Assembly: GCA_003280025.1 (NCBI GenBank)
Contig: QCGD01000014.1
Coordinates: 1-39,216, forward strand
Source: Prochlorococcus sp. AG-363-P06
GTDB lineage: Bacteria > Cyanobacteriota > Cyanobacteriia > PCC-6307 > Cyanobiaceae
DNA: 39,216 bases
Direction of reading: 5' to 3'
The translations under genes and the position numbers were made by a program. The notes below the pieces were generated by a model, which saw nothing but the letters and a program-made list of their open reading frames with translations, did no database searches and was not told the DNA's origin. Positions 7,467 through 38,882 of the stretch are shown here, one piece after another; the first letter of the stretch is position 1; each line of letters begins with the position of its first letter.

Positions 7467-7676
7467 ATGAATGATAGTTTTAAAAAATTTGTATCCATAG
7501 GGATAGCTCCTAGAGGAGTGATTGCTATTGGACTCGTTCCAATGGGCTTTATTGCTATAGGAGGAGTATCAATGGGGATCATCACAGTAGGTGCTGTGGG
7601 AATGGGTTTGATTAACGCTTGCTTGGTTGGCTGTGGTTTGCTCGTATATGGGATAAAGGTAATGGGGCTTACTTAG
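7467..7676 (+). CDS. small glycine-periodic membrane protein, 69 aa
   Basis: The protein is built from imperfect six- to seven-residue units of the type PxGxIAIG (APRGVIAIG, VPMGFIAIG, VSMGIITVG, VGMGLI). Almost every residue after 10 is small or hydrophobic, so it is membrane-inserted or forms a tight glycine-rich bundle. Similar small cyanobacterial proteins exist but have no known role. ATG at 7467 is chosen over an in-frame TTG 30 bp upstream, which would overlap a weak hairpin with a T-run (7439-7461). The stop is 2 bp before the next start, implying translational coupling to the DUF4116 gene. Confidence 0.55.
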   Translation: MNDSFKKFVSIGIAPRGVIAIGLVPMGFIAIGGVSMGIITVGAVGMGLINACLVGCGLLVYGIKVMGLT

Positions 7677-7678
7677 AA

Positions 7679-10399: not shown

Positions 10400-10422
10400 A
10401 GTATGACTTGGTTTTTATAGAG

Positions 10423-10465
10423 TCGGGGCGACAGGATTCGAACCTGCGACCTAGTGCTCCCAAAG
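10423..10465 (-). repeat. partial tRNA-Pro copy, att site T1/T2
   Basis: Exact match to the last 43 nt of tRNA-Pro (34593-34635), ending after CAAAG on the plus strand, three bases short of the other copies. Confidence 0.9.
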
Positions 10466-10594
10466 GACTCGATCTATCAAGTAAGATTTACTTAAAATCC
10501 TAGTTATAGTCTTAATTATTTGTAGAAGGTGGCACTAGGTTGAGACTCAATAAAGAGATATCTTCCAAGATTATATAAGGTCTTTATAGATTCT

Positions 10595-12314: not shown

Positions 12315-12333
12315 ATGACTTGGATTATTAGAG

Positions 12334-12379
12334 TCGGGGCGACAGGATTCGAACCTGCGACCTAGTGCTCCCAAAGCAC
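12334..12379 (-). repeat. partial tRNA-Pro copy, att site T2/T3
   Basis: Exact match to the last 46 nt of tRNA-Pro, from the discriminator base to GTGC of the anticodon stem. The following 40 bp resemble those after the copy at 30777 (AAGTGAGA-CT, ATCTCAG-CATAAC), the other element that carries a recombinase. Confidence 0.9.
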
Positions 12380-13968: not shown

Positions 13969-14108
13969 TATATTAAATAAACAGGTTTAAGGAAAAATTA
14001 AAAAGCTAATAAGATCGAATAAAAAAATAAGCATTGAATGTAAAGTAAATGTGAAATAATTGCATCAAATAAATTTGATTATATAAAATTAATTTGTTGG
14101 GTTTTCAA

Positions 14109-14837
14109 ATGGCTATTAAAGATCATAAAAGTTTGCAAGACTCAAAAATTCTTCTTGTAGAGGATGACAAGAGTATTAGGTTGACAGTAAGTGAGACATT
14201 GAATAGCGAAGGTTTTAGAGTATTAAGTTTCAAAGATGGTTTAACTGCATTAGATTTTATTACTAATGATTCTAAAAATGATGTTGACCTAATAATTCTC
14301 GATTTAATGTTGCCAGGGTTAAATGGATTAGAGTTATGCAGAAAAATAAGAAATGAAGAAAACTATACACCCATACTAATTTTGAGTGCTAAAGATAATG
14401 AATCAGACAGGGTTCTTGGTTTAGAGGTTGGTGCAGATGATTATTTAACAAAACCTTTTGGTTTAAATGAATTAATTGCTAGATCAAGAGCCTTAATAAG
14501 AAGATCTAAACGTAATAAAAAAAATATAGAAAACTCAAAAACCGTCATAGAGTTTAACCATATAAAAATGTTTTTGGAAGAATGTAGGGTAACTTCTTTC
14601 GATAGAGAAATAACATTATCTCCAAAAGAATTTAAATTATTAGAATTATTTATGAAAAATCCTAAAAGGGTATGGTCAAGAGATTTAATACTTGAAAAAA
14701 TATGGGAAATTGACTTTATCGGTGATACTAAAACTGTAGATGTTCATGTTAGGTGGCTCAGAGAGAAATTAGAAGAAGATCCCTCAGCTCCAAAGTTTCT
14801 TAAAACTGTTAGAGGCTTTGGATATAAGTTTGGATGA
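14109..14837 (+). CDS. phoB: phosphate response regulator PhoB
   Basis: 242 aa OmpR/PhoB-type regulator. Receiver domain 10-130 with the acidic pocket E18-D19-D20, phosphoacceptor D65 (ILDLMLPG) and K115 (LTKPFG); winged-helix DNA-binding domain from about 145 to the end with the usual TVDVHVRWLREKLE and RTVRGFGYKF motifs. It should activate phosphate-starvation genes through Pho boxes, two of which lie 3 kb downstream. ATG 14109 is preferred over a TTG 15 bp upstream. Its stop overlaps the phoR start (ATGA), so the two are co-translated. Confidence 0.93.
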   Translation: MAIKDHKSLQDSKILLVEDDKSIRLTVSETLNSEGFRVLSFKDGLTALDFITNDSKNDVDLIILDLMLPGLNGLELCRKIRNEENYTPILILSAKDNESDRVLGLEVGADDYLTKPFGLNELIARSRALIRRSKRNKKNIENSKTVIEFNHIKMFLEECRVTSFDREITLSPKEFKLLELFMKNPKRVWSRDLILEKIWEIDFIGDTKTVDVHVRWLREKLEEDPSAPKFLKTVRGFGYKFG

Positions 14838-15988
14838 AAATGAAAACGCTACAAGAGGTATTAACTTTCTTTTATGAGAAATGGAAAACCAAGGTTAAAG
14901 GACTTTCAAAAAATAATAAAAATATTGAATTAACTAAAAATAAGAACCAACAAATTTTTGATTTTCCATTTGATAAAGTTAAACCACAGCAACTTTTATC
15001 TTGGTTAGATTATTCATCTCAAGGATGGATGATTTTGTCATCTGATCTAACAATAAAATTTATCAATCAGAAAGGTTTATCTCTCATTAAGTTTATTAAA
15101 TATAAAGATGTTATTGGAAAAGCAATTAATGATATTAATGAGCTCGAAGTACTAAGAAATAAGATTTTATATTCAAGAAAAAAAGATTTCCCAATCAGCC
15201 TAGATTGCACTATTTCGGGGGAACCCATTTCTGTAAATATTGTTAGAGCAAGGAAAAAAAATTATTTAATATTGTTGGAGAGTAAATTATCAATTGAATC
15301 CATAAAAAAAAGACAGAATCAATTAATCAATGATGTGTCTCATGAACTGAAAACACCTCTTACATCTCTTATTTTGATAGGCGAAAGACTGGAATCAGTA
15401 GTATCAAAGAAAGATAGATATCTCGTTAAAAGACTTAAGAAAGAATCTAAAAGATTAAGAAAAATGGTCGAAGAAACTTTAGAACTTTCTAAGCTAGAAA
15501 GTAGCGAGGCTTTTAATAAAAATAAAAAAATATCTATTTCAGATTTGGTTATGGAATCTTGGCAAACCTTAAAACCGCTTGCAGAAAAAAAAGATATAAA
15601 AATAAATTTATTTATACCAACAAAATATTATATGTCTGGTGATGTTGAAAATTTACAGAGAGCATTTATAAATATTTTGGATAATGCTATTCGTTACTCC
15701 CCAACAAATGAGGAAATCCAAATTGAAATTTTTAAAAGAGATAGCTCTGTTGTTATAAGAGTTAGAGATAAAGGTATTGGATTAGAGGAAAATGAATCAA
15801 ATGATATTTTTTCTCGTTTTTATCGTGGTGATCCATCAAGGACTAAATTCAAGAAAAGTGGTAGTGGTTTAGGTCTTTCAATAGCAAAAAAAATAATCAA
15901 TAACAATAAAGGTTTTATAAAAGCTTTTAATCATAAGGATGGTGGGGCAATTATAGAAGTTGTCTTCCCATTGACGGCAGAATCTTGA
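14834..15988 (+). CDS. phoR: phosphate sensor histidine kinase PhoR
   Basis: 384 aa. Senses phosphate status and phosphorylates PhoB. There is a PAS-like region at about 50-150, a dimerisation helix with the H-box NDVSHELKTPL (H170), and an ATPase domain with N-box (ILDNAIRYSP), G1 (VRDKGIGLEE), F-box (FSRFYRGD) and G2 (SGSGLGLSIAKKI). No clear transmembrane helix is visible, so it is probably cytoplasmic or peripheral. The start overlaps the phoB stop by 4 bp. No ptrA regulator gene follows, although one is known beside phoBR in some relatives; the next gene is the convergent porin. Confidence 0.93.
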   Translation: MKMKTLQEVLTFFYEKWKTKVKGLSKNNKNIELTKNKNQQIFDFPFDKVKPQQLLSWLDYSSQGWMILSSDLTIKFINQKGLSLIKFIKYKDVIGKAINDINELEVLRNKILYSRKKDFPISLDCTISGEPISVNIVRARKKNYLILLESKLSIESIKKRQNQLINDVSHELKTPLTSLILIGERLESVVSKKDRYLVKRLKKESKRLRKMVEETLELSKLESSEAFNKNKKISISDLVMESWQTLKPLAEKKDIKINLFIPTKYYMSGDVENLQRAFINILDNAIRYSPTNEEIQIEIFKRDSSVVIRVRDKGIGLEENESNDIFSRFYRGDPSRTKFKKSGSGLGLSIAKKIINNNKGFIKAFNHKDGGAIIEVVFPLTAES

Positions 15989-16050
15989 GATTTATATAAA
16001 AACTATTTGATTGTTTTAATACATTCACAACCTTTTTTGATGAAATAAAA

Positions 16051-16074
16051 AAAGCCTGCAATTTTACAGGCTTT
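16051..16074. terminator. bidirectional terminator
   Basis: Stem AAAGCCTG / CAGGCTTT with an 8-nt loop, A-run on the left and T-rich on the right, between the convergent phoR and porin genes. Confidence 0.75.
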
Positions 16075-16108
16075 AGATATGCGTAGGATTTTAAGAACTT
16101 AGAGAAGA

Positions 16109-17239
16109 CTAGAACTTGAATTTTGTTACTACACCAATTCCAGAATCATTATCACCAGATTGCTCAACAACATAAGCAAATGGCTTAATAGACATTGAAT
16201 CGTTTATTGGATAAGAGTAACTAATGTCGTAAGCAAGTTGTTCTGTTTCAGCACTTGTGTAATGTTGTTTTGTTCCTAGTGTTGCTGCGATAGTACCTTC
16301 GCCAAGATCAGAAGAAGCACCCACTACGTATTGAGTGGTTTCATCACCTGAATCTGGGTTTCCGAATTCAATACCTCCACTAATAGTTGGAAAGTTATCT
16401 GAACTATAAGAAGCTGCAAAGCCATAGTATGAACCAGAATCGACATCTCCTAAAGCCGCAGATACTTCGAAATTATCTGCTGCGTAGCCGAGAGCAATAC
16501 CATAATAATCACTACCTTCTTTAGTAAAGATACCTTTTGAACTTGAACCATCTTTAGCAGAAAGACCTAAGCCTAAGGACCATCCCTCTCCTAATTCTCT
16601 ACCAGCACTAACTGAGACATCTCCACCTAATGCAAGAGATTTTTCAACCCCACATTTGTCTATTCCATCTACCACTGCCTCAACAGCACAGGCATTTGGG
16701 AATTGTTTGGAAGCATCCAATGAATCACCAACAGTAACTGTCCATTCTCCTACAGGGAAAGTGTAGTTAATATCTTCGATTCTTAATTGATCTGATGCGG
16801 GCTCTCCGAAATCGAGAACTTCATTAACTGTTTTGGTACCATTTTGGTTACCAGATGAAATTTCGACGTTTAATTTATCATCACCAGTAAAACTAGTATC
16901 CAAGTCAACTGACCAGTGATAGTTGAACATGACAGCTTCTTCAGCATCAGAACCACCATTACTAGCTGCACCGATCAAGAATTCAGCTACTCCTTTCATA
17001 GAAGTTGTTTCTGTAAAACCACCAGCTTCGAAGTTGTTGAATTTTGCTTCTATGCCATCTACACGGCTATTAGTAATAGCAAGTTCTTTTTTAGCATCAA
17101 ATTCGCTAATGTTCTTAACTTCTTCTGATGAAGAGTAACCAGATACATCAGCAATGTTAAGCTCATTAGCTGTTGCAGACATAGGAGCAAGAAGTCCTAA
17201 TGCAGCAGGTGCTATAAATAGCTTTTTAAATAGTTTCAT
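16109..17239 (-). CDS. Som-type outer-membrane porin, Pho-linked
   Basis: 376 aa. Signal peptide of 24 residues ending in SATANE, then a short helical linker (ELAITNSRVDGIEAKFNNFEAG) and a beta-barrel of alternating strands closing on a terminal Phe (GVVTKFKF). Forms an outer-membrane channel, here probably for phosphate or organic phosphate, since it is divergent from pstS across two Pho boxes. Relatives in the same position are phosphate-starvation induced. The first start, 36 bp upstream, is rejected because MKLFKK is preceded by GTTGAGGAAC, the porin ribosome site, and matches the two other porins. Confidence 0.88.
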   Translation of the reverse strand: MKLFKKLFIAPAALGLLAPMSATANELNIADVSGYSSSEEVKNISEFDAKKELAITNSRVDGIEAKFNNFEAGGFTETTSMKGVAEFLIGAASNGGSDAEEAVMFNYHWSVDLDTSFTGDDKLNVEISSGNQNGTKTVNEVLDFGEPASDQLRIEDINYTFPVGEWTVTVGDSLDASKQFPNACAVEAVVDGIDKCGVEKSLALGGDVSVSAGRELGEGWSLGLGLSAKDGSSSKGIFTKEGSDYYGIALGYAADNFEVSAALGDVDSGSYYGFAASYSSDNFPTISGGIEFGNPDSGDETTQYVVGASSDLGEGTIAATLGTKQHYTSAETEQLAYDISYSYPINDSMSIKPFAYVVEQSGDNDSGIGVVTKFKF

Positions 17240-17344
17240 GTTCCTCAACACGTTAAATAATGGATTAATATCCAATATTCATTTCAACGGTTGTAGGTTA
17301 AGAAATTAATAAGGATCATAAGGAAATAGAAAATTTAAAGAGAA

Positions 17345-17363
17345 CTTAAACTTCCCTTAAATT
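17345..17363 (+). promoter_or_regulatory. Pho box 1
   Basis: CTTAAACT-3-CTTAAATT: two 8-mers 11 bp apart, the geometry of cyanobacterial PhoB (SphR) sites (consensus CTTAACCT). It lies 106 bp upstream of the porin start and 233 bp upstream of pstS. Confidence 0.6.
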
Positions 17364-17471
17364 AAATAAAAAAATGTATATATATTTCGAGAATTTTTTT
17401 TATAAAAGTTAAAAAATAAACACATATTTATTTTTATATATTTTCAAAACCAAACGATAAAAGCTTTAATC

Positions 17472-17497
17472 AAGATTTAGTTTAAGAGAGGGTTAAG
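17472..17497 (-). promoter_or_regulatory. Pho box 2
   Basis: On the minus strand CTTAACCC-3-CTTAAACT-3-TCTTGATT: three 8-mers at 11-bp period, the first two close to consensus. About 100 bp upstream of pstS. It points opposite to box 1, so the pair is arranged symmetrically between the divergent genes. Confidence 0.65.
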
Positions 17498-17595
17498 AAC
17501 TAATTAATTAAAAGATAAACTTTAAATTAAAAAGTATTTGGGTTCAAATTAAGTGCTATAAAAGATGGAGTCTTCCTATTTCTAAAAAGACAATT

Positions 17596-18570
17596 ATGCG
17601 CTTTCCTAAAAAAGCTCTTTTATTAGCTTCTACAATGACTTTGATCGCTTCTTGCGGAACCTCAACTTCTTCAGTGAGGTTAAGTGGAGCTGGAGCATCT
17701 TTCCCTGCCAAAATTTATACTAGATGGTTCAAGGATTTATCAAATGAAGGTGGTCCAAAAGTAAATTATCAAGCTGTTGGTTCTGGATCAGGACGTAAGG
17801 CATTCATTGACGAAACAGTTAACTTTGGTGCTTCTGATGATCCCATGAAAGATAAGGATATAGCAAAAGTTACTAGAGGATTAGTTCAGATACCTATGGT
17901 TGGAGGTACTATTGCTTTTGGATATAACTACGACTGTGATTTGAAACTTTCCCAAGAGAAAGCAGTAAAAGTTGCTATGGGAATGATTAAAGATTGGAAA
18001 GAATTAGGCTGTAAATCAGGTAAGTTAACTTGGACACATCGTTCTGATGGATCAGGTACAACTAAAGCCTTTACAAACTCTATGGAAGCTTTTTCAAGAA
18101 ACTGGACTTTAGGGACAGGAAAATCAGTTAAATGGCCTGCAGGTGTTGGTGCTAAAGGTAATTCTGGTGTTGCTGGTGTTATCCAAAATACTCCTGGTGC
18201 AATTGGTTATGTTAATCAATCGTATATAAAAGGAAATGTTAAAGCTGCTGCACTTCAGAATCGTTCTGGAGAGTATGTAAAGCCTACAGTTGAGGCAGGA
18301 GCAAAAGCTCTTAATGGTATTACTCTAGATGAAAATCTTGCTGGTAAGAATCCTAATCCAAGAGCGAAAGGAGCTTATCCGATAGCATCCTTAACTTGGA
18401 TTCTTGCTTATGAAGAAGGCAATGGTAAAAATACTAAAGCTATCCAAGAAGCTTTAAGTACACTTTTAAGCGATGAGTATCAAGATAAAGCTCCATCACT
18501 AGGATTTGTTCCTTTGAAAGGAGATATTCTTGAGAAGTCAAGGGCTGCTGTAAATAGAATCGGTAAATAA
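17596..18570 (+). CDS. pstS: phosphate-binding lipoprotein PstS (second copy)
   Basis: 324 aa periplasmic phosphate-binding protein of the Pst transporter. Lipobox LIASC with Cys20; binding motifs GAGASFP, GSGSGRKAF, FGASDDPM, RSDGSGTT. It is the copy in the expected context, beside phoBR and the porin and behind Pho box 2, so it should be strongly induced by phosphate starvation. It differs from the 5396-6361 copy mainly in the signal peptide and scattered surface positions. A terminator follows the stop. Confidence 0.95.
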   Translation: MRFPKKALLLASTMTLIASCGTSTSSVRLSGAGASFPAKIYTRWFKDLSNEGGPKVNYQAVGSGSGRKAFIDETVNFGASDDPMKDKDIAKVTRGLVQIPMVGGTIAFGYNYDCDLKLSQEKAVKVAMGMIKDWKELGCKSGKLTWTHRSDGSGTTKAFTNSMEAFSRNWTLGTGKSVKWPAGVGAKGNSGVAGVIQNTPGAIGYVNQSYIKGNVKAAALQNRSGEYVKPTVEAGAKALNGITLDENLAGKNPNPRAKGAYPIASLTWILAYEEGNGKNTKAIQEALSTLLSDEYQDKAPSLGFVPLKGDILEKSRAAVNRIGK

Positions 18571-18592
18571 ATCGTAAGACAAACATTTAAAT

Positions 18593-18618
18593 GGGGGAAT
18601 TTATTTCCTCCTTTTTTT
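18593..18618 (+). terminator. terminator of pstS
   Basis: Stem GGGGGAA / TTTCCTCC with a small loop and a run of seven T, ending at the 3' end of the convergent chrA gene. Confidence 0.7.
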
Positions 18619-19843
18619 ATGCGAACAAATATTTTGATAAACCTAATATTAAAGAAAAAAGAATAAGTATGTAGGTTGGAACTATTTTAAAAAAAGATAA
18701 TAGTGTGGAGATTAAAACTATAAAAATAGAGCTAATTAAAAAGAATTTTGATGAATAACTATCTTCAATTAAATTAAAGCCAGAGAAAATAACTGCTCCT
18801 GGAATTGTATTGATTACTCCTTCGATAAAGTAATTAATCGATTTAATTCTGTTTTTTATGAAGCCTTTTCCAAAAACAAAAATCAATAAAAAACTTGGTA
18901 AAAAAATTGCAAAAGTTGATATAAATGAATACTTTAAAGCTCCATTTATTCCTCCGATCGAAAACCCAGCTTTGTATCCAATAAAACTTGTAGTTAATAA
19001 GACAGGACCAGGTGTTATTTGGCCAATCATTATCCCATCTATAAATTCATTATTTGTTAACCATCCTTGTGAGACAACATAATCACTCATTAGGGGAATG
19101 ATTACTAATCCACCTCCAAAAATAAAAAGTCCTGATTTGAAAAAGAAAAAAAATAGATTAAGATAATCTATTAAAAACTTTGAGTTTGTAGAGTCCTTAA
19201 AAAAATTATAAAACTTGGCAATATCCAAAAAGATTGAGCTAGTTAAAAATGAGGTTGTTGAAAATATAGATAAAGGAACAAAACTATAAAAAATATTTTT
19301 CCATTTCTGTAAGAAAATATTTATCAAACCTGCAATAGTAAGAATTGTTATTAGAGGAAATTGAATACTATTATATTTGGCAAATATAAGTAGAAATAAG
19401 ATTGAGCTAGAGAATAATACTCGATCTAACTTTAATCTTTTTTTTAATAGAACTAATGAAAATGAAAAAATTATTCCTGCAATAATAGGAGGATTAAAAT
19501 AAATTAAATCACTTAGAAATTTTGATCCAGAATAAATTTGCCAAAAAAAGCTAAGAACTAATACCGAAATGAATCCTGGGATAATGAAACATGTACCGGA
19601 TATCAATCCACCAAGATAACCATTAATTTTAAGACCTATATATATTGCTAATTGAGTGGATATTGGCCCTGGAAGCAATTGACATAAACCAATACCTTTT
19701 TCAAAAGATTGGGTTGAGATCAATTTTTTATTATTTATAAGTTCATCTTCGAATAAAGAAATATGAGCATATGGTCCTCCAAAGCTGAAAATACCAATTT
19801 TTAGAAAAATTTTTGCAAGTTCAATTAAGGATATTTTTGCCAT
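18617..19843 (-). CDS. chrA: chromate-transporter family protein ChrA
   Basis: 408 aa inner-membrane protein of the long (two-domain) CHR family. Both halves show the family signatures: [16 protein letters not shown] and [10 protein letters not shown] in the first, [12 protein letters not shown] and [10 protein letters not shown] in the second, with about ten hydrophobic helices. Family members expel chromate or related oxyanions. It lies 30 bp behind arsJ and would be the last gene of a gap-arsJ-chrA operon controlled by ArsR, so the natural substrate could be an arsenic or other oxyanion rather than chromate; that is inference. A decayed piece of it is at the left window edge. Confidence 0.88.
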
Positions 19844-19873
19844 CTAAATATTCTAATTTCTAAAAATTAGCTT

Positions 19874-21133
19874 TTATGGTGATGATAAGCTTTGTTTGAT
19901 TGATGGTAATTTAAGACTCGAAATCCAAGATAATAATATTAGAAGTGATGAAAAATAAAGACAATATTGAAGACCAATACTTGGATTTCTCCCAATCATA
20001 AATAGTAAGCCAGATAGTAATGTTCCAACTAGTCTTCCAGCAGCATTTGCCATGTAATAGAAGCCAACATTTAAGCTGACTTTTTCATTATCAGAGTAGG
20101 CCAAAATCATATAAGAATGTGTAGAGGAATTCATTGCAAAAACAAATCCAAAAATAGTAAGTCCTAAAATTATTGCTATCGATGGAGAACTTTCTCTCCA
20201 TAATGCGACTCCTATCAAAGATGGTATGACCATTAATACGGCACTCCAAAATTGGATAGCTTTACGATCTGGACTTTCTTTCTGGCCCCACATCTTTCTA
20301 ATTGCTGGAGCCGAAGCCTGAACAATTCCATAACCTATTACCCAGGCCCCAAGAAATAATCCTATTTCCATGTAGTCCCAACCAAATGCCATATCTAGGA
20401 ATACTGGGAGAGCTACAACAAACCAAACATCTCTTGCTCCAAAAAGAAAGAATCTTGCTGCTGAAAGAATATTTATTGCATTTGATTTTGAAAAAAGATC
20501 ATTAAAAGCTGGTTTGGTTTTCATCTTGCCAATTTCTCCAGGCAAAATTAATGTCAATAAAAAGGCTAAGCAGAGTCCAAAACCCATAATTCCTACAGCA
20601 TTATTGAATCCAAATAACTTATATAAAAGTCCACCCAAGAAAAAGCCAACTCCCTTAAGAGCATTTTTAGATCCAGTTAAAATAGCAACCCATTTAAAAA
20701 GTTGTTTTTGGCCAGTATCATTGCCATCATTTGTCTCTGGAACTACTGTCTTAACAGCACTTTTAGCACTCATTTTGTTTAAATCTTTTGCTATCCCGCT
20801 AACTGCTTGAGCAACCATAACGTATGCCACACTAAAAATTACTGGCCAATCTTCCTTAACTGGAATAAGCATAAAAAGAGCGATGATTTGCAGGATAGTC
20901 CCAATCCATAAAGTAAGCCTTAAACCATATCTTGCTCCTATCCAACCACCATAAAGATTAGTAATTATTCCAAAAAACTCATAAAAAAGGAAAAGTAAAG
21001 CAATTTGTAGAGTTGTGTAACCTAGCTCATGAAAGTGACCAACAACTAATAATCTTAATGCGCCGTCAGTAAGCGTGAACGCCCAATAGTTTGCTGTTAC
21101 AACACTATATTGTTGAATATTAGATAACTTCAT
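19874..21133 (-). CDS. arsJ: organoarsenical efflux transporter ArsJ
   Basis: 419 aa major-facilitator protein with about 12 hydrophobic segments. The N-terminus NYWAFTLTDGALRLLVVGHF, then LFLFYEFFGIITNLYGGWIG and ARYGLRLT, is characteristic of ArsJ. ArsJ exports 1-arseno-3-phosphoglycerate, which GAPDH forms when arsenate replaces phosphate. The GAPDH gene directly upstream (11 bp gap) is the known partner. Together they remove arsenate taken up through phosphate transporters, which fits the phosphate-scavenging genes alongside. Confidence 0.93.
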   Translation of the reverse strand: MKLSNIQQYSVVTANYWAFTLTDGALRLLVVGHFHELGYTTLQIALLFLFYEFFGIITNLYGGWIGARYGLRLTLWIGTILQIIALFMLIPVKEDWPVIFSVAYVMVAQAVSGIAKDLNKMSAKSAVKTVVPETNDGNDTGQKQLFKWVAILTGSKNALKGVGFFLGGLLYKLFGFNNAVGIMGFGLCLAFLLTLILPGEIGKMKTKPAFNDLFSKSNAINILSAARFFLFGARDVWFVVALPVFLDMAFGWDYMEIGLFLGAWVIGYGIVQASAPAIRKMWGQKESPDRKAIQFWSAVLMVIPSLIGVALWRESSPSIAIILGLTIFGFVFAMNSSTHSYMILAYSDNEKVSLNVGFYYMANAAGRLVGTLLSGLLFMIGRNPSIGLQYCLYFSSLLILLSWISSLKLPSIKQSLSSP

Positions 21134-21144
21134 AAAGACATAAA

Positions 21145-22167
21145 TTAAATCTCTTTGTTGATTACATATTCAGTTAGATCTGCAAGTCTGCAGCTGTAAC
21201 CCCACTCGTTGTCATACCAAGCGTATATCTTTAATAAATTTGAATTAACAACCATCGTCGATAAACTATCAACTATTGAACTTCTAGAGTCATTTACATA
21301 ATCTGCAGAAACTAAAGGTCTTTCCTCGTAGCCAAGAATTCCTTTTAAATAAGTTTCTGAAGCTTCCTTAAGTGCCAAATTTACTTGTTCAGTTGTCACT
21401 TCTTTATTTAATTCAAAAACTGCATCAGTTAAAGAACCATTAAGTAGAGGAACTCTCACTGCATGTCCATTTAATTTTCCTTTTAATTCTGGAAAGATCT
21501 CAGCGATAGCTTTAGCAGATCCAGTGGTAGTCGGTATTAAACTTTGCATACATCCCCTTGCTCTCCTTAAATCACTTTTATAAAAATCTACAGGAACTTG
21601 AGTGTTCGTGACATCGTGAATAGTTGTAATAGCACCGTGTTTAATTGAAAAATTTTCATTAATTACCTTTACTATCGGAGCTAAACAATTTGTAGTGCAG
21701 GATGCTGCAGTTACTAATTTATGTTTGGAAGGGTCATAAAGACTTTGATTTATGCCATAAACAACATTAAGTGATTCAGCTTCTGCAACAATTCCCTTTA
21801 CTGGACAAGCTACTATTACTCTTTTCATCCCTAGAGAATCAAAGTAGGGATTTAGTTTGTCTGGCTTTTTATTGTTTCCTGTACATTCCAAAATAATATC
21901 TACAGAAGATTTTTCCCAAGGAACATCAAGGTAATTTTTTAAAGAGGTGTAAGCTAATTTCTTTCCATCAATTATTATTTCTTTTCCTTTAACCTTTATA
22001 TCTTTCAACCATCTACCATGGACTGAATCAAATTCGAGTAGATGTGCAGCAGCATTCGAATCTCCTGCTATCTCATTTATATGAGTTATTTCTATATCAG
22101 CTCTATCCCATAATGCTCTGAAAACTAATCTGCCAATTCTTCCAAAACCATTAATTCCAATTTTCAT
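21145..22167 (-). CDS. ArsJ-associated glyceraldehyde-3-phosphate dehydrogenase
   Basis: 340 aa. Rossmann motif INGFGRIGR at the N-terminus, catalytic Cys157 in [10 protein letters not shown], His in the later HDVTNTQ segment, and the C-terminal [11 protein letters not shown]. In arsenate-resistance operons this enzyme uses arsenate to make the unstable 1-arseno-3-phosphoglycerate for export by ArsJ. First gene of the minus-strand operon; its start is 26 bp from the ArsR operator-like palindrome. The housekeeping GAPDH of photosynthetic metabolism would be elsewhere. Confidence 0.92.
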
Positions 22168-22192
22168 AACTTTGAAATTTTCTATTGAAATT

Positions 22193-22216
22193 ATACATCA
22201 AAATATTTTGATGTAT
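22193..22216. promoter_or_regulatory. ArsR operator-like palindrome
   Basis: A perfect 24-bp palindrome with half-site ATACATCAAAAT lies between the divergent gap and arsR genes. The inner ATCAAAATATTTTGAT has the form of ArsR/SmtB operators (ATCAA-n-TTGAT). It should let ArsR repress both directions until arsenite binds. Confidence 0.75.
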
Positions 22217-22284
22217 CAAGATGTTTTTATTAATGAAATCTTTTTTATTTAAGCTATATTTAGGAAAATTTAATTACTTTAAAA

Positions 22285-22605
22285 TTGTTAAAAGATATTA
22301 GCAAAGTAAAAAAAGAAAATATATCTAAGTTGATGGTTTCATTTTCTGATCCTTTTAGGCTAGAAATAATTGACCTAATGATGGATGGAGAAGTTTGTGT
22401 TTGCGATATTATGAAATTAACAAAGTTATCTCAATCAAGAATTTCATATCACATAAAAATTTTGAAGGAAGCTAGTCTTATCTCAGACAGACAAGAAGGT
22501 AGATGGGTGTATTACAGCCTAAATAAAGAAGCTCTCTTTTTGATCAAGGAATGGATAACTTCTTTGACAGATTATTCTTCAAATAAAAAACGTTGCTGCG
22601 AATAA
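22285..22605 (+). CDS. arsR: arsenic-responsive repressor ArsR
   Basis: 106 aa winged-helix repressor. LMVSFSDPFRLEIIDLM opens the ArsR fold, the metal-site motif EVCVCDI gives Cys38 and Cys40, the recognition helix is LSQSRISYHIKILK, and a C-terminal CysCys pair (104-105) may complete an As(III) site. No ATG precedes the first helix, so TTG 22285 is used; an ATG at 22333 would cut into the domain. Divergent from gap-arsJ-chrA across the palindrome. Confidence 0.88.
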   Translation: MLKDISKVKKENISKLMVSFSDPFRLEIIDLMMDGEVCVCDIMKLTKLSQSRISYHIKILKEASLISDRQEGRWVYYSLNKEALFLIKEWITSLTDYSSNKKRCCE

Positions 22606-25841: not shown

Positions 25842-25887
25842 TCGGGGCGACAGGATTCGAACCTGCGACCTAGTGCTCCCAAAGCAC
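25842..25887 (-). repeat. partial tRNA-Pro copy, att site T3/T4
   Basis: Exact 46-nt match to the 3' part of tRNA-Pro. No terminator hairpin on its downstream (lower-coordinate) side. Confidence 0.9.
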
Positions 25888-25991
25888 TCGATCAGCAAAT
25901 TGCGACAGTACCCATGAGAACGAAGTGAGGCTATGACTTTAGATTGAAATATTTGTTATCAATATGAGTCTCAAGCATTGTCCTATATGCA

Positions 25992-28761: not shown

Positions 28762-28807
28762 TCGGGGCGACAGGATTCGAACCTGCGACCTAGTGCTCCC
28801 AAAGCAC
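28762..28807 (-). repeat. partial tRNA-Pro copy, att site T4/T5
   Basis: Exact 46-nt match to the tRNA-Pro 3' part. The flank GAGAAGTCAAT is the same as at 1740. Confidence 0.9.
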
Positions 28808-30754: not shown

Positions 30755-30776
30755 AGTATGACTTGGTTTTTAAGAG

Positions 30777-30822
30777 TCGGGGCGACAGGATTCGAACCTG
30801 CGACCTAGTGCTCCCAAAGCAC
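30777..30822 (-). repeat. partial tRNA-Pro copy, att site T5/T6
   Basis: Exact 46-nt match to the tRNA-Pro 3' part. The following bases (AAGTGAGAATCT, ATCTCAGTCATAAC) resemble those after the 12334 copy. Confidence 0.9.
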
Positions 30823-30924: not shown

Positions 30925-30971
30925 TTTCGCTCACCTTTCGCACAATATAGGTATAGAAAGACCTAGTGCTC
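30925..30971 (+). repeat. T6 left arm sites
   Basis: TTTCGCTCACC at 30925 and TTTCGCACA at 30936 (11-bp period), then GACCTAGTGCTC (30960-30971), an exact 12-bp piece of tRNA-Pro that directly abuts the ATG of the recombinase. Confidence 0.7.
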
Positions 30972-32156
30972 ATGCCTAAAAAAGTTTATACAGAAGATTG
31001 GGTAAAGTCTGCCAGAGATATGTTTAGGGCTGAAATGGCTGCTGATGCTAAGTGGTATATATCTAATCAAAGAGGTTATGTAAAACTTGAAGTTAGAGAT
31101 AATGGACAATATCAATCAATAATGTTGAATTATGAATGGTCAAAGAATGAACTATTTAAAGCAGCTAGAAGAATAATAAAAATATATGAGAACTTTTATT
31201 CAGATATAGGAAAAGGATCTTTAAAGAAATCTTGTACTGTTGTTGAAACTATAAGTAGTAAAGGGAAAATAGATTTTGACGAAATATTCAAAGAATTTAG
31301 AAGGTTTTGCGTGACCGCCTCGGATAAAACATGGAATAAATCCTACGTCCCAGTACTCCATAAATGCCAAGAGCTATTAGAAAGATCGAAAGGGAAACCA
31401 TCAGGCGGTGAAGAATTAATGATATCTTGCCTTGAACAATGGGAGGAGGGAAGTAGGTCGAGACAAATTGCAAAAAGAGTTATTTATAAATTTCTTGAGT
31501 GGGCAGTTCTTAGGGCAAAGATTTCTAATATGTATGCACCTGTAAAACTAAGAGAAACTTTAAAAGTAAAAAGGGTTGGTTATGCCTTAGAAGATGAGCA
31601 AGTTCTCCAATTAATAGCTTCAGAGAAGAATCAATCTTGGCAGTTTGCTTATCAATTATTAGCTGTTTATGGATTACGTCCAGAGGAACTTAGACACCTT
31701 GTTATTAAAAAAGGAATAAACGGAAAAGAATTATGGTGCATTTATAGAAAATCTATGGGAGGAACTAAAGGACAAAAGACAGAACCTAGACAACTTGCTC
31801 CTTTATTAATTAAAGATGGAAAAGGTTTTATTGATTGGAAACTACAAGAAAGAATAGAGAAAGGAGAAGAACTTCCTTCATTGGGAGATAGTGCAGCTAA
31901 TGGATTGAGAAAACATTTAGAAAGAAATAAAAACTGGATAAGATTTAAAAAACAAGCAAAAATACAAGGCGAGTCCTTAGTTCCTTATGCCTTCCGTCAT
32001 AGATATGCAAAAGAATCACACGCATCTGGATTCCCTATAAATAATATTGCTGAGGCTATGGGTCACACTCAAGAAGTGCATCTACAAAACTATGGAAGAT
32101 TTAAACCTAGTGGAACAACTGATTTATATAGCAATAGGAATATGCAAACAGCATAA
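30972..32156 (+). CDS. tyrosine recombinase (integrase) of T6
   Basis: 394 aa, a diverged relative of the T3 enzyme with the same architecture. Catalytic residues: R236 (YGLRPEEL), Lys in the 260-269 loop, R342 in PYAFRHRY, H365 (AMGHTQ), nucleophile Y374 (QNYGRF). The first position of the HxxR box is Tyr339. The N-terminal 90 residues, expected to bind arm sites, share little with the T3 enzyme, which agrees with the different arm words of the two elements. ATG 30972 is chosen; a GTG at 30966 lies inside the core echo. A terminator of the TTGACAGTCG family follows. Confidence 0.93.
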   Translation: MPKKVYTEDWVKSARDMFRAEMAADAKWYISNQRGYVKLEVRDNGQYQSIMLNYEWSKNELFKAARRIIKIYENFYSDIGKGSLKKSCTVVETISSKGKIDFDEIFKEFRRFCVTASDKTWNKSYVPVLHKCQELLERSKGKPSGGEELMISCLEQWEEGSRSRQIAKRVIYKFLEWAVLRAKISNMYAPVKLRETLKVKRVGYALEDEQVLQLIASEKNQSWQFAYQLLAVYGLRPEELRHLVIKKGINGKELWCIYRKSMGGTKGQKTEPRQLAPLLIKDGKGFIDWKLQERIEKGEELPSLGDSAANGLRKHLERNKNWIRFKKQAKIQGESLVPYAFRHRYAKESHASGFPINNIAEAMGHTQEVHLQNYGRFKPSGTTDLYSNRNMQTA

Positions 32157-34562: not shown

Positions 34563-34592
34563 TGTAATATTTCTCATTCGCTAAAAAACCAG

Positions 34593-34666
34593 TCGGGGCG
34601 ACAGGATTCGAACCTGCGACCTAGTGCTCCCAAAGCACCCGCGCTACCAAGCTGCGCCACGCCCCG
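34593..34666 (-). tRNA. tRNA-Pro(TGG)
   Basis: 74 nt, CCA not encoded. Acceptor stem CGGGGCG / CGCCCCG, discriminator A; D arm GCGC-AGCTTGGTA-GCGC; anticodon arm GGTGC-TTTGGGA-GCACT with anticodon TGG; variable loop AGGTC; T arm GCAGG-TTCGAAT-CCTGT. All stems pair. It is the integration target of the whole island; only the 3' half beyond the anticodon is duplicated in the elements. A T-run directly downstream can serve as its terminator. Confidence 0.97.
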
Positions 34667-34980
34667 CTTATAAGATCTTAGTTCATAAAAGACATCTATA
34701 AAAGACCAAATTGATAAATATTTTATAAAAAATCACTTTTTTTCTAGAAAATGATTTTTGTCACTATTTTTTCAAAATTAAAAAAGTAATTTTTTGCAAT
34801 TAGTCTAGCTTGAAAAAAAAATACATAGCTCCAGTGACTGTAAGAATGGAAGAATTCCCCATACTTTTTAGTCATGACATACAATTGTATTAATTTACTC
34901 TTTTTTATTAATTTTTTGATATCTATTAATTAGTAGTATTATTGAAAAAATAATTTATCAAAAATTAAGAGATTTATGAA
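34667..34980. other. spacer right of tRNA-Pro
   Basis: AT-rich with no gene. It must hold the tRNA promoter (minus strand) and that of the 34981 gene (plus strand). No box stands out with confidence. Confidence 0.3.
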
Positions 34981-36666
34981 ATGAAGTTTGCATTTTATTT
35001 TTTCATAATTGCGCAAATTTTAAACTTTCTGGGTGTATCTGCGGAAAAAGTTACAAAAGATTCTTCTGAATTTAATCCAATTAATTGGGAAAAGGTACGC
35101 GAAAATGAGGAAAAACCTTTTAAAAAGATTTTTAGGAAATCGTACAAGGACGATAAAAGTTATTTTGAAAAAACAAATTTAATAAATAAATCAAAGAAGA
35201 ATCATTATAAATCTCAAGAGCAGCCTTCAACTTGGCGAAATCGCACCTTAAGGTTTTCCTTTGAGGAAATTGATATGCCAGATGCTGGCGAACAGATGGG
35301 TTTGTACAGTATAGGGGCTTACGATCAACTAAACCCTTGGCTTTACGGCGGTATTACTCTTTACGGTGCCGCGACCGGCGCCCGGGGAGGGTTCTTTACT
35401 GGTGGCTATACCTTGGGCGTGGAACGTCAGTTATTCGATAACTTGATTTTCGATGCAGGAGGCTATGTGGGTGCCGGGGGCGGGGGTGCCGCGGCGCAAG
35501 GAGGAGGTTTGATGATCCGCCCCCATGTAGGTCTCAAGTACGACTTTAGCTGGAGCGAACTGGGTCTGAAATATACCTACGTAGACTTCCCAAACGGAGA
35601 TATTTCAAGCGATGCAATTGCGCTTTCACTAGATATTCCCTTCAGTTCATTGACACTCAATTTGGAAGATGATGGACTGACTGCGGCTGATTACTTTGGA
35701 GTTGATTGGCGCAATGTCAGCCGCCACCGATCACACCTAGCCGCCCGCGTTCGTGCGTATTCACCGGCCAGCGACAGCAAAACCACCTCCGGTGGCTCGC
35801 TTAATAATTCTTTGGGGCTGATCGGCGTAGAGTACTCTTACTTTCTCGATGAAAACTGGTTCGCCACCTTTGAGACTGCTGGTGCCATATCAGGTGGTGT
35901 AGGAGGATATGCCGAACTTTTAGCCGGGATAGGCTATCGCTTCCCTCTAACCAAAGACGATCGTCTGGGCCTACTACCTTCTCTAACCATCGGCGGCGCA
36001 GGTGGCGGGGCGGTCGAAACCGGCGGAGGATTTGTAGCCCGAGCAAATCTAGGTTTGGAATACAGACTTTCTCCTGATCTAAGTCTAATTATGGACAGCG
36101 GTTATCTTGCCGCTCCAGATGGCAATTTTGAAACTCCATATGTAGGCTTCAATTTGGCATACGTAATGGAAACCTTTGCTCAGGATCAAAAAGGAGATCC
36201 TTTAACGGAATCAGAACTTATACAAACTAACAAATGGCGATTTCGCCCATCGCACCAATGGTATTTTGATGCGCAGCGGAGGAGAAGCTCTTCACGCGAT
36301 ATGCAACTTATGGGAGGCAAAATTGACTGGATGGGAGGAGATTGGTGGTACCTTACAGGACAAGGATTAAGCGCGTATGCAGGAGGAGCCGGTGGCTATT
36401 CAGAGGGACACTGGGGAGTTGGTGTTATTGGCCCAAGATGGAAGAACTGGACACTCTATGGTGAAATGCTCATAGGTGCCGGAGGGGGAGGAGGTGTTGA
36501 TAGCGGGAGCGCCTTATTGTACAAACCAAGTGTTGGGTTAGAGTACAACCTCAATAAGGAATTTAGCCTTCAAACTGGCATAGGGAAAGTGATTTCTAAA
36601 GAAGGGAATCTTGATTCCAATACCTTGGATGTAAGTCTGGTTTGGCGTTTTGGGACCCCAAAATAA
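34981..36666 (+). CDS. glycine-rich outer-membrane beta-barrel protein, GC-rich
   Basis: 561 aa. Signal peptide of about 21 residues (ILNFLGVSA) and an AT-rich, Lys-rich linker to about residue 90, then a beta-strand protein with at least three related blocks: GGITLYGAATGARGGFFTGG and GGYVGAGGGGAAAQGGG; TAGAISGGVGGYAELLAGIG and GGAGGGAVETGGG; GLSAYAGGAGGYSEG and GAGGGGGVDSGS. The last residue pattern (VSLVWRFGTPK) fits a barrel end. The DNA from about 35250 to 36200 is far more GC-rich than anything else here (43 of 60 bases G or C at 35461-35520), pointing to transfer of the barrel part. Function unknown. Confidence 0.75.
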   Translation: MKFAFYFFIIAQILNFLGVSAEKVTKDSSEFNPINWEKVRENEEKPFKKIFRKSYKDDKSYFEKTNLINKSKKNHYKSQEQPSTWRNRTLRFSFEEIDMPDAGEQMGLYSIGAYDQLNPWLYGGITLYGAATGARGGFFTGGYTLGVERQLFDNLIFDAGGYVGAGGGGAAAQGGGLMIRPHVGLKYDFSWSELGLKYTYVDFPNGDISSDAIALSLDIPFSSLTLNLEDDGLTAADYFGVDWRNVSRHRSHLAARVRAYSPASDSKTTSGGSLNNSLGLIGVEYSYFLDENWFATFETAGAISGGVGGYAELLAGIGYRFPLTKDDRLGLLPSLTIGGAGGGAVETGGGFVARANLGLEYRLSPDLSLIMDSGYLAAPDGNFETPYVGFNLAYVMETFAQDQKGDPLTESELIQTNKWRFRPSHQWYFDAQRRRSSSRDMQLMGGKIDWMGGDWWYLTGQGLSAYAGGAGGYSEGHWGVGVIGPRWKNWTLYGEMLIGAGGGGGVDSGSALLYKPSVGLEYNLNKEFSLQTGIGKVISKEGNLDSNTLDVSLVWRFGTPK

Positions 36667-37056
36667 AGTTCCAAACTTTGAGTTAGCTTTGAAATAAAGT
36701 TGGAACAATATAGCCAACGTAGCTCGATTAGTTTTCTTATAATTAAGTATTCCTTCGCACACGCGCTACTAAACTTTGTCGCTTTTTCTGGCTTTATAGC
36801 TTGTCATAAAAGTAAGAAAACTAGTTATTGAAATCAGCCTTTCTTGTAAAAAGGGATGCTCCAAAGCAAACGTGTTACCAAGCTCTTAGCTGACTAAAGA
36901 CCTTAAAAAGACTTAATCACAAAATGTCTAAAAGATTTTAATGAGTTTTAAATTAGATCAATAAAATATATACATTTGGAATTAAATAATTTCTCGAACA
37001 TTTAATGTGGAATTTTGAGTATTTTTTAACATATTTTTTGAATTAACCAGTTTTGA
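36667..37056. other. non-coding stretch with tRNA-like remnants
   Basis: ATGCTCCAAAGCA-ACGTGTTACCAAGCT at about 36849-36877 resembles the 5' half of tRNA-Pro on the minus strand (anticodon loop to D arm), with one deletion and several changes. CACGCGCTACTAAAC at about 36760 resembles the D arm again. These would be remains of a second tRNA copy. No other gene in the stretch. Confidence 0.4.
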
Positions 37057-37161
37057 TTAGATCAATCCTATATATCCAAAAGTAAATCCTACGAATAAAA
37101 AAAATGTAAACTCTAGTAAATCCCTTGGTAAAGAATTCACTATTAAATTGAATTGAGTCAT
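37057..37161 (-). CDS. small membrane peptide, 34 aa
   Basis: MTQFNLIVNSLPRDLLEFTF followed by FLFVGFTFGYIGLI. One hydrophobic segment after a short polar N-terminus. The upstream sequence CTGAGGAGCACAAGGTAAA offers a strong ribosome site (GAGGAG, AAGG), which supports translation. Family not recognised. Confidence 0.5.
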   Translation of the reverse strand: MTQFNLIVNSLPRDLLEFTFFLFVGFTFGYIGLI

Positions 37162-37378
37162 TTTACCTTGTGCTCCTCAGGTTAATTAATTTCAGAAGAA
37201 TATAACTAATAATTTTTTTTGTTGAGGTTAAAACTTGCTTTTTTTTCTTTTTTCTAAAGAATTGAAGAAAATCTAAAATTTAAGATTAATTTCTATAAAA
37301 TTATTAATTATAAATATATTGAGTTGATTTTTTTTAATGCTATATTCCTGTAAAGGGTTTTCATACTAAGAAATACAA

Positions 37379-37546
37379 ATGGACTATAAAAAGAAATCTC
37401 TGAAAAAATTGAATCGTAATGAAAGTTACGAAGAAATTGATACTAGATTAGCTTCTGGATGGTATGTGGACACTTTAGGAGGTAATAAGCGAAAGAAATA
37501 TAAGACTAAGGAGGTATCCTTCAAAATTGCTAAAAAGGTAGATTGA
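37379..37546 (+). CDS. small basic protein, 55 aa
   Basis: MDYKKKSLKKLNRNESYEEI then DTRLASGWYVDTLGGNKRKK and a Lys-rich end (KTKEVSFKIAKKVD). Very basic (Lys/Arg over a quarter of residues), so nucleic-acid or membrane-surface binding is possible. ATG start, plausible codon use, no overlapping gene. Not recognised. Confidence 0.55.
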   Translation: MDYKKKSLKKLNRNESYEEIDTRLASGWYVDTLGGNKRKKYKTKEVSFKIAKKVD

Positions 37547-37721
37547 TCTTTTTAAAAATTTTAAAATGAAAACTAATTTATAAATTAATTAAATTAGAAA
37601 ATTTAATTGTACAGGTTAAAAAACTGGTACAAGAAGCATAAATGTATCAATCAATACTTGATTTTTTATCAATTAATACATTATATTTAATGTGTACTTA
37701 AAATTTCGTGTGAGGAAATTT

Positions 37722-38882
37722 ATGAAGCTTTTCAAAAGCTTGCTTGTAGCTCCTGCTGCATTAGGACTTCTTGCTCCTATGTCTGCAACAGCTAATGAGC
37801 TTAACCTTGCTGATTTTACTGACTATTCTTCATCAAAAGAAGTCAAGAACATTAGCGAATTTAATTCTAAACAGCTTGCTGTTACCAATAGCCGTGTAGA
37901 TGGCCTTGAAACAAGAATCAATAACTTCGAAGCTGGTTCTTTCTCAGAAACAACAACAGCATCTTTCTCTGCTGATTTCGTAATCGGTTCTGTTGATGGT
38001 ATCGCCGGCCAAGAGCAGGTTTCAACTGGATATAGTTTCCAAATTGATCTAAACACAAGCTTTACTGGTGAAGATTCATTTGATGTATCTATCGATGCTG
38101 GTAATGCTGGTAGTCCAAATGATGATAATACATTTAGGACATTTGATGAGCTAGATCTTAATGATAATGGAGACGGACTCACTGTCGACGGAATTTCTTA
38201 TACTTTCCCTGTTGGTGACAAGACAACTGTTTTCGTTGGTGACAGCGTAGATGGTAGTTCTCTTTACAATACAGCTTGTGTTTACGCCTCTCCTACAGAT
38301 ACAATGGATGACTGCTCATTGAGTGGTTCCGGTATAGAAGATGGCGCTGGAACTGCTGCTGGTGCAAGCTTTGAACTCGGTAATGGATTTACTGCTGCTG
38401 TTGGTTATACAGGAGACGGGTCTACTGCTAACGGTTTAATGACTCGCGAAGGAAATGATTCTATCGGTGCTCAACTTACATATACCGATGAGTCTTACGG
38501 TGCATCTTTAACTTATGCAAACGTTGAAGGTAATGATGACACTACATTCTGGGGACTTAACGCTTACTGGACTCCAGAAGCAACTGGTTCTGCACCTTCA
38601 ATAAGTGTTGGTTATGAATGGGGTGATCCAACGACTGCTGATGATTCAACACAATATTTTGTTGGTCTTCAGTGGGATGAAGTTGGTCCAGGATCACTTG
38701 GTGTTGCATTAGGTAACACAGGTTCTATTACAGATGGAGCAGAAGAAACCACTATGTATGAAGTTTTCTACAACTACCCTGTAAACGATGGTATGACAAT
38801 TACTCCTGTCCTATACAACAGAGAAGTTGCTGCAGCCGAAGATCAAACAGGTATCTTAGTTAAGACTTCATTCAGCTTCTAA
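37722..38882 (+). CDS. Som-type outer-membrane porin
   Basis: 386 aa. Signal peptide (MKLFKSLLVAPAALGLLAPM, cleavage after SATANE region), helical linker LAVTNSRVDGLETRINNFEAG, then a Gly/Asp/Thr-rich beta-barrel that ends in TSFSF with terminal Phe. Sister of the Pho-linked porin at 16109-17239. Passive diffusion channel of the outer membrane. The start at 37722 follows GTGTGAGGAAATTT, the ribosome site shared by all three porins; a GTG 30 bp upstream is rejected. Terminator follows, then another porin. Confidence 0.9.
   Translation: MKLFKSLLVAPAALGLLAPMSATANELNLADFTDYSSSKEVKNISEFNSKQLAVTNSRVDGLETRINNFEAGSFSETTTASFSADFVIGSVDGIAGQEQVSTGYSFQIDLNTSFTGEDSFDVSIDAGNAGSPNDDNTFRTFDELDLNDNGDGLTVDGISYTFPVGDKTTVFVGDSVDGSSLYNTACVYASPTDTMDDCSLSGSGIEDGAGTAAGASFELGNGFTAAVGYTGDGSTANGLMTREGNDSIGAQLTYTDESYGASLTYANVEGNDDTTFWGLNAYWTPEATGSAPSISVGYEWGDPTTADDSTQYFVGLQWDEVGPGSLGVALGNTGSITDGAEETTMYEVFYNYPVNDGMTITPVLYNREVAAAEDQTGILVKTSFSF

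Follow-up and report, generated by a model that had tools for sequence, protein, structure and literature searches.

How does a gene come to carry two parts that look as if they belonged to different genomes? The question is raised by an open reading frame (ORF) of Prochlorococcus sp. AG-363-P06 (NCBI GenBank assembly GCA_003280025.1, contig QCGD01000014.1, positions 1 to 39,216; this whole stretch of 39,216 nucleotides is called the window below). The ORF, 34981-36666 (+), is intact and encodes 561 residues. It starts with a signal peptide (residues 1-21, 34981..35043, +), whose cleavage site was read by eye from the translation, without a predictor, and which is part of a leader common to the barA genes described below. 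A Lys-rich linker, presumably periplasmic, follows (residues 22-84, 35044..35232, +); W36, I50-K53, Y55 and F62 are its conserved columns in the A5 alignment. The remainder, W85-K561 (35233..36663, +), is a module that we call barB, delimited by junction alignment, synonymous GC content and relatives in other phyla. Our reading, to which we give a probability of roughly 0.8 from sequence comparison, is that the gene encodes a chimeric outer-membrane protein, a resident leader joined to an imported barrel.

The composition of the gene changes abruptly within its length. Codons 1-80 have a GC content of 0.23-0.30 and codons 81-560 one of 0.41-0.60, and GC content at third codon positions (GC3) goes up from 0.25 to a mean of 0.44; in the 27 other window ORFs of at least 120 amino acids GC3 is 0.18-0.26. 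With these 27 genes as codon-usage reference, and with expected counts of GC-ending codons corrected for amino-acid make-up, codons 81-561 hold 211 such codons versus 108.6 expected (z 12.3) and leader codons 1-80 hold 20 versus 17.6 (z 0.7), while the other genes span z -1.45 to 2.6. The step is a matter of codon choice, not of amino-acid content; glycine and alanine do not cause it, because the excess survives the correction, and the same synonymous test rules out a composition artefact. The sequence-only reading of this locus had described the first 250 bp or so as AT-rich and local in composition, encoding signal peptide and Lys-rich linker, with a sharp GC rise and codons unlike those of the neighbours beyond them, and GC, GC3 and synonymous usage all step after about codon 80 as it proposed. 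Its span of 35230-36300 holds at the start, W85 at 35233 being where the homology common to all contexts begins, but not at the end: the fall in GC near 36300 is only partial, and the codon bias, although weaker, reaches the stop (codons 401-480 z 2.3, codons 481-560 z 4.6).

Where are the relatives of the barrel found? Window residues 77/78-559/561 match one gammaproteobacterial sequence, L064, on a contig of 502 kb (GC of the locus 0.56), and one verrucomicrobial sequence, L065, on a contig of 96 kb (GC 0.49). Their aligned barrels are 71% and 69% identical to that of the window and stand under other N-termini, so that the proposed search for non-cyanobacterial relatives gave a positive answer. 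The wider barB family, about 26-39% identical to the window barrel, was detected around L064 in 15 of 219 genomes at the level of the class and in 9 of 246 at that of the order, and around L065 in 3 of 245 genomes at the level of the order and in 2 of 230 at that of the phylum (L064 and L065 are counted; one match in the class and one in the phylum are short and weak). In a barrel tree of 36 rows, the 14 rows chosen from Prochlorococcus group together as a clade (99/98). L064 and L065 join them in a wider clade (100/100), which sits among gammaproteobacterial and verrucomicrobial rows, several of these on long branches. These comparisons support residues 85-561 as a putative imported module of a barrel family found here mostly in Gammaproteobacteria. 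Phage or plasmid origin was rejected as a candidate: 50,697 phage and 72,556 plasmid records gave no barrel match at E 1e-5. Viral contigs were scanned with a pattern able to detect close relatives only, and the scan returned one stretch and no barB relative, and PHROGs gave no match for the two proteins searched.

A second picocyanobacterial genus carries the barrel as well, in copies 88% (L055) and 86% (L059) identical to the window and under different N-termini. A cobQ query from genus g1, matched at 80-89% in 20 of 20 g1 genomes, is only 57% identical to the cobQ of L055 and, with the same cut-off, had no match in the L059 genome. Because barB is 88% identical yet cobQ only 57%, we conclude that barB passed between the two picocyanobacterial genera. 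Synonymous divergence (dS) agrees with such a passage, being 0.33 between the window and L055 and 0.53, 0.50 and 0.48 between the window and L002, L003 and L073 of its own genus. The leader of L059, sought in 14 genomes of its genus, was found in that genome only, and therefore leader capture in that genus is unproven.

The resident part was followed in 200 genomes of the window's genus, its own included; 74 gave a match, and their loci were fetched and scored with marker proteins. Twenty-nine of the 74 hold barB, in one case (G065) broken by a contig end and in the others nearly full-length, with an internal stop in two (G180, G008). Among the carriers of leader-barB is Prochlorococcus MIT 9302 (L039). 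At L028 (G187) the leader markers found no leader, yet the query matched from residue 4 or 16 onward. In 42 of the 74 genomes the leader heads an unrelated AT-rich barrel, barA, full or shortened, which adjoins cobQ in 41 of the 42 pieces, the remaining contig (L106) ending before it. Two genomes have the leader with only the third barB repeat, and one has it with a third barrel type, barC, next to a barB relic. Comparison of the barA and barB profiles gave an hhalign probability of 0.3%; no distant relationship is detectable, and the two are therefore different barrels under one leader. In the family as a whole, the leader was found in 8 of 241 genomes and 1 of 59 genera, and barA in 50 of 241 genomes and 20 of 59 genera. 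Residues 1 to about 84 are thus supported, by these sequence comparisons, as a resident Prochlorococcus leader that heads a native barA beside cobQ in other strains. The earlier idea of a foreign glycine-rich barrel on a resident leader is supported from both sides, the leader occurring on native barA and the barrel occurring elsewhere without this leader. Full-length orthologues of the same GC profile throughout Prochlorococcus, together with a lack of closer outside relatives, had been named as evidence to the contrary. Nearly full-length orthologues do exist in 28 of 200 genomes, with the same GC step in those that were read, but so do the outside relatives.

Several variants of these loci should be mentioned. 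In L067 and L101 (one place, two collections) the leader heads an AT-rich C-terminal part in a 313-residue protein, barC, which adjoins an inverted relic of barB repeat 3, 44% identical. The shortened barA of L092, L108, L123, L124 and L126-L129 has the leader joined in frame to the last 220-245 barA residues, an internal deletion of the same kind as in barB, and the genome of L059 (G383) contains barB and a shortened barA together. In L017, L062 and L063 the W-E-K part of the linker is, by eye, apparently tandem-duplicated. The Prochlorococcus leader with barB also appears in L060 (contig PBXW01000144.1), filed as Crocinitomicaceae; this contig is probably misplaced in its bin.

If leader and barrel have separate origins, then we can ask: at which point, and at which place, were they joined? 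In the junction alignment, the five N-terminal contexts become homologous from W85 (35233) on. Ten of the 29 barB genes lie at the cobQ site; in the 1.5 kb of flank retrieved, an intact tRNA-Pro accompanies nine, and ten have neither. The barrel tree unites 11 of the 12 distinct barB rows of the cobQ site (100/97), the exception being L027, which is placed elsewhere with L012 (94/87). The leader tree (82 rows, 66 columns) has a different arrangement: the L027 leader, which heads barB, is sister to the L121 leader, which heads barA (95/93); L014 and L049, paired at 98/86, are placed close to a different barA leader (93/73, not starred); L025 and L026 are joined by nine barB leaders of the cobQ site (100/95); and the barB leaders of the tRNA-Pro site fall, together with barC and further barB leaders, in a set of 27 rows (93/92, not starred). 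The starred branches of this tree force three changes for the cobQ barB leaders. Because leader and barrel trees conflict, we read barB as having come under more than one leader lineage, apparently in some cases in place at cobQ.

We also read the cobQ site in 20 genomes with barB elsewhere (one of which, G004, has only the third repeat). In the cobQ-side pieces of 5 to 13 kb no leader gene was found; G198 retains the last 31 barA codons there, and the window's genome and five others of the 20 gave no barA match in the family-wide barA search. In the window's own genome (L181, 5409-9496, G000 contig 6) the cobQ ORF is shortened to 358 codons and adjoined by ORFs that by eye resemble a serine recombinase and a GIY-YIG protein. 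The most economical order, as we infer it, would place leader-barA at cobQ first, then replacement of barA by barB at that site, and then carriage of leader-barB to the tRNA-Pro site. The fusion is older than this genome and not unique to it. From the letters alone the joining had been placed directly beside the tRNA; a tRNA-Pro does adjoin the gene, but the fusion may have arisen at the cobQ locus instead.

The present surroundings of the gene are bounded by parts of this tRNA. An intact tRNA-Pro(TGG) is annotated at 34592-34666 (-), and a 5'-half remnant at 36857-36884 (-), taken as the far border of the cassette, scores 35, a value reached in none of 2000 Markov shuffles of 36667-37690 (maximum 28; shuffles of this kind cover the window remnant only). 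Fragment alignment revealed six 3'-part fragments on the other side, the nearest at 30776-30822 (-) and the others at 1740-1786, 10422-10481, 12333-12379, 25842-25907 and 28762-28807. All six hold the tRNA from about position 29 on (two alignments extend with mismatches), and they form a tandem array (window 1740-34666) ahead of the intact tRNA, at whose edge the fused gene lies between tRNA-Pro and the 5'-half remnant. Just after the 30776 fragment stands a tyrosine recombinase (PF00589 by Pfam; 30966-32156, +), and a recombinase-like ORF at 12527-13804 is its 32% relative, without Pfam confirmation; both start within 150 bases after a tRNA-Pro fragment. The ORFs of the cassette itself, 34667-36884, include no recombinase, the one at 30966-32156 belonging to the neighbouring segment.

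The same borders recur in other strains. Of 13 loci with intact tRNA-Pro, nine have the 5'-half remnant beyond the gene, among them L030/L139, which is the single-repeat form, and L066, where the remnant lies 2.4 kb past the gene. The remnant of L035 is a perfect 42-base copy and three others score 36-39. The upstream flank of the tRNA is duplicated after the remnant in six of eight comparisons (L032, L033, L035, L041, the second L139 remnant and L066; none of 1000 shuffles reaches the score in any of them); the first L139 remnant has no clear duplication, 29 of 1000 shuffles reaching its score. About 14 bases around the anticodon are common to the 3' and 5' fragments, as would be expected of a crossover core. 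This anatomy looks like that of an element inserted 5' of the tRNA, bringing its own tRNA 5' half and upstream flank, and a tRNA-Pro-specific recombinase would move cassettes made up of the fused gene, the tRNA 5' half and the upstream flank. L096 has the gene in reverse orientation between these borders, pointing to a separate insertion. The gene of L053 and that of L036 are directly followed by a 3' fragment instead of a 5' remnant; therefore other arrangements exist.

The array contains further cargo. Between the tRNA-Pro fragments at 12333 and 25842, the genes of 14094-22605 look by eye like a Prochlorococcus phosphate-acquisition set (response regulator, histidine kinase, porin, phosphate-binding protein, transporters, glyceraldehyde-3-phosphate dehydrogenase and ArsR), and a second phosphate-binding-like gene, again by eye, is at 5396-6361. 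Three proteins of similar short repeats (KSDREIVLAAVSQDG type) are encoded at 2954-4228, 7619-9265 and 11039-12094.

What would the imported module look like in the membrane? An AlphaFold2 model based on a 25-row alignment (predicted local distance difference test, pLDDT, 82.7; predicted template-modelling score, pTM, 0.71), which replaced an earlier 10-row model of pLDDT 65.4, has 24 strands grouped as three sets of eight. They correspond to repeat 1 (35233..35643, +), repeat 2 (35728..36171, +) and repeat 3 (36226..36660, +), and between strands 5 and 6 of each the model and the conservation place a Gly-rich loop (35482..35508, 36004..36030 and 36487..36513, all +). The repeats are 26-29% identical, with pairwise alignment scores of 82, 99 and 141 against shuffle maxima of 48, 44 and 47; the three Gly-rich blocks noticed in the sequence-only reading thus occupy the same place in three homologous units. 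Fold comparison with VIA-align matched repeat 2 to the N-terminal barrel of OprF (Z 17.6, root-mean-square deviation (rmsd) 2.0, 125 residues aligned), OmpW (17.4) and OmpA (16.2), and repeat 3 to PagL (14.3) and CarO (14.1). Repeat 3 is also the unit kept in the natural single-repeat forms, leader plus repeat 3, of L030/L139 and L075/L100, which fit independently folding units. The product is most likely three small barrels, each repeat a predicted OmpA/OmpW-type 8-strand barrel whose closure we infer from fold matches; the barrel fold expected earlier is also predicted by the model, although as three barrels rather than one. By prediction the chain has at least two membrane barrels, those of repeats 2 and 3, as multi-barrel proteins do. 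Pfam and NCBIfam gave no family for the window protein at E up to 1, and a PDB sequence search with the 10-row profile gave no match. OMP_b-brl (PF13505) does not match the window protein either; the relative L065 reaches 28.5 bits against a cut-off of 28.7.

Conservation points to the loops. Taking as outward those between strands 1-2, 3-4, 5-6 and 7-8, on the assumption of a periplasmic N-terminus, identity over 13 divergent rows is 0.50 in outward loops, 0.68 in Gly loops, 0.35 in strands, 0.22 in turns and 0.13 in links. In outer-membrane proteins it is usually the surface loops that vary; because here the modelled loops are the most conserved part across phyla, they probably carry a shared function. 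The ratio of nonsynonymous to synonymous divergence (dN/dS) is 0.12-0.21 in eight of eight pairs within the genus, 0.18 for the window against L055 and 0.32 for L055 against L059 (against L064 synonymous sites are saturated), which supports purifying selection on the barrel. Beside barB relatives, genes of glycan synthesis or export were found in four of 12 outside loci (L065, L183, L184 and L190). A Pfam scan of ten neighbours, selected by eye in these four, gave a match for nine; the other eight loci were read by eye, some in short pieces. L065 has a weak LptD_N match before the barrel (E 0.047, below cut-off). By analogy, a multi-barrel surface scaffold or conduit for envelope glycan or a lipid-linked polymer may be tentatively suggested as the most likely activity, the least secure part of our reading, with solute uptake and a surface-receptor role as further possibilities.

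The main reading has to be compared with other explanations. That the GC step is an effect of amino acids in a native Gly/Ala-rich gene has practically no chance of being true: the neighbouring porin gene (37722-38882) is slightly GC-rich as well (z 2.24), but the synonymous excess persists after correction, and the mean GC3 of the native barrel is 0.19 (41 rows) against 0.40 for barB under the same leader (73 rows, duplicate loci included). Transfer in the opposite direction, from picocyanobacteria to the gammaproteobacterium and the verrucomicrobium, is unlikely. Each of L064 and L065 is a single genome, with Prochlorococcus barrels as its nearest relatives, and the genomes sampled contained no closer gammaproteobacterial sequence. 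GC3, however, runs from 0.66 in L064 and 0.52 in L065 through 0.49-0.51 in the other picocyanobacterial genus to 0.35-0.48 in the window's genus, as fits an import losing its donor bias; moreover, the outer family is mainly gammaproteobacterial in the sampled genomes, and within the window's family barB occurs in just 9 of 300 genomes and 2 of 59 genera, one occurrence being a fragment. Nor is the fused gene at all likely to be decaying island debris, in spite of stops, a frameshift or single-repeat forms in L004, L009, L061, L030 and L075, since the window copy is intact, dN/dS is low within the genus and 28 of 200 genomes have nearly full-length copies.

For the product, the choice lies between three small barrels and one 24-strand barrel with a large pore. 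Twenty-four strands in one chain would allow the latter, and Foldseek ranks large barrels at the top, OpdQ and PfeA among them (E 5.8e-9 and weaker). Over the 50 best rows, however, these alignments have template-modelling scores (query) of 0.13-0.30 and rmsd of 15-29, whereas a single repeat superimposes closely on an 8-strand barrel; natural forms keep a lone repeat, and the links between repeats are the most variable parts. One large barrel is thus rather improbable. It is possible, although we doubt it, that pressure from phages or grazers drives the exchange of barrels, the protein being a surface receptor and each swap altering the face shown. Unrelated barrels barA, barB and barC under one leader, the deletion forms and the location at a mobile array beside porins would suit such a role. 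Set against it are the predicted surface loops of barB, which are the best conserved part across phyla, the low gene-wide dN/dS within the genus (a measure that averages over sites), and the phage records and viral-contig scan, both without a relative of the barrel.

A chimera of resident leader and imported three-barrel module is what we prefer, and several observations count against it or against parts of it. The closest outside sequences, at the identities given above, do not identify a donor, and both come from metagenome-assembled genomes. In some linkers, those of L042, L072 and partly L009, L019 and L060, as many as about 16 residues ahead of W85 are in common with L055; for this reason the first joint may lie further upstream, the linker having changed later. 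In the leader tree, built on just 66 columns, 41 of 79 inner branches are open, and the three changes are possibly one gain and two losses. Repeat 1, barely covered by the VIA-align list of matches, has weak fold matches, with Z up to 9.3 for non-membrane barrels and 7.7 for the porin KdgM. Four of the 13 tRNA-Pro loci (L034, L037, L042 and L045) have no 5' remnant, and that of the window is short and without flank duplication (score 22, reached by 712 of 1000 shuffles). Within Prochlorococcus, loops and strands are equally conserved (0.84 and 0.83). Glycan neighbours occur in just those four outside loci, and the tRNA-Pro-site copies lie near porins, not glycan genes, which is why the glycan suggestion is kept tentative.

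How does the protein compare with known systems? Multi-barrel outer-membrane proteins, the subject of a 2021 report in PNAS as related in PMC8592465 and PMC11494523, likewise have more than one predicted barrel in one chain. Unlike the proteins described there, the window protein has three homologous 8-strand units with Gly-rich loops, lacks a Pfam or NCBIfam match and is fused in frame to the leader of another lineage. GfcD/YjbH (DUF940) are, according to the same papers (PMC8592465, PMC11494523), two-barrel proteins linked to exopolysaccharide export. The multi-barrel build and the glycan genes at some outside loci recall them, but GfcD has 12- and 13-strand barrels with a domain between them (PMC8592465, PMC11494523), and no family match places the window protein in DUF940. 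The model of repeat 2 resembles the 8-strand barrels of OprF, OmpW and OmpA; sequence identity to these is just 12-13%, and the window protein has three such units in tandem. The native barA outer-membrane protein shares the leader and, in other strains, the cobQ locus, but its barrel is unrelated.

With regard to mobility, tycheposons were reportedly described by Hackl et al. in 2023. They are tRNA-bordered integrative elements of Prochlorococcus (PMC10872708). The window resembles them in its tRNA-bounded tandem segments with tyrosine recombinases and in its borders, namely six 3'-part fragments, an intact tRNA-Pro and a 5'-half remnant; it differs in that the fused gene lies 5' of the tRNA and that its cassette has no recombinase. 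Among the matches listed from open-access papers, no account of such a barrel swap or of this protein was seen. Multi-barrel outer-membrane proteins and cargo of tRNA-site islands are known kinds, and what is of interest here is the swapping of unrelated barrels under a constant native leader.

How could such a chimera work? The native promoter and signal peptide would export the imported barrel through Sec, the linker would span the periplasm, and the barrel assembly machinery (BAM) would insert three barrels side by side, their short surface loops, above all the three Gly-rich ones, carrying the conserved activity. We may go one step further, although the proposal is speculative, and imagine a leader-and-cassette surface system of Prochlorococcus in which a constant leader for expression and export is loaded with the interchangeable barrels barA, barB and barC. 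Recombination 5' of the tRNA, carrying along the tRNA 5' half and the upstream flank, would then spread the loaded genes between strains.

An imported outer-membrane protein depends on its new host for export and folding, and transfer between phyla should be limited for that reason. In this gene the obstacle has apparently been passed by retaining the native signal and linker and exchanging the membrane part alone, and the several junction histories in sequenced strains offer material for comparison. The natural series of three repeats, one repeat and different barrels under one leader is suited to testing independent folding of the repeats of a multi-barrel protein, and the case connects the exchange of surface proteins in an abundant phototroph with tRNA-site recombination. 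If the leader-and-cassette proposal is true, a whole outer-membrane activity would be replaceable without altering its regulation.

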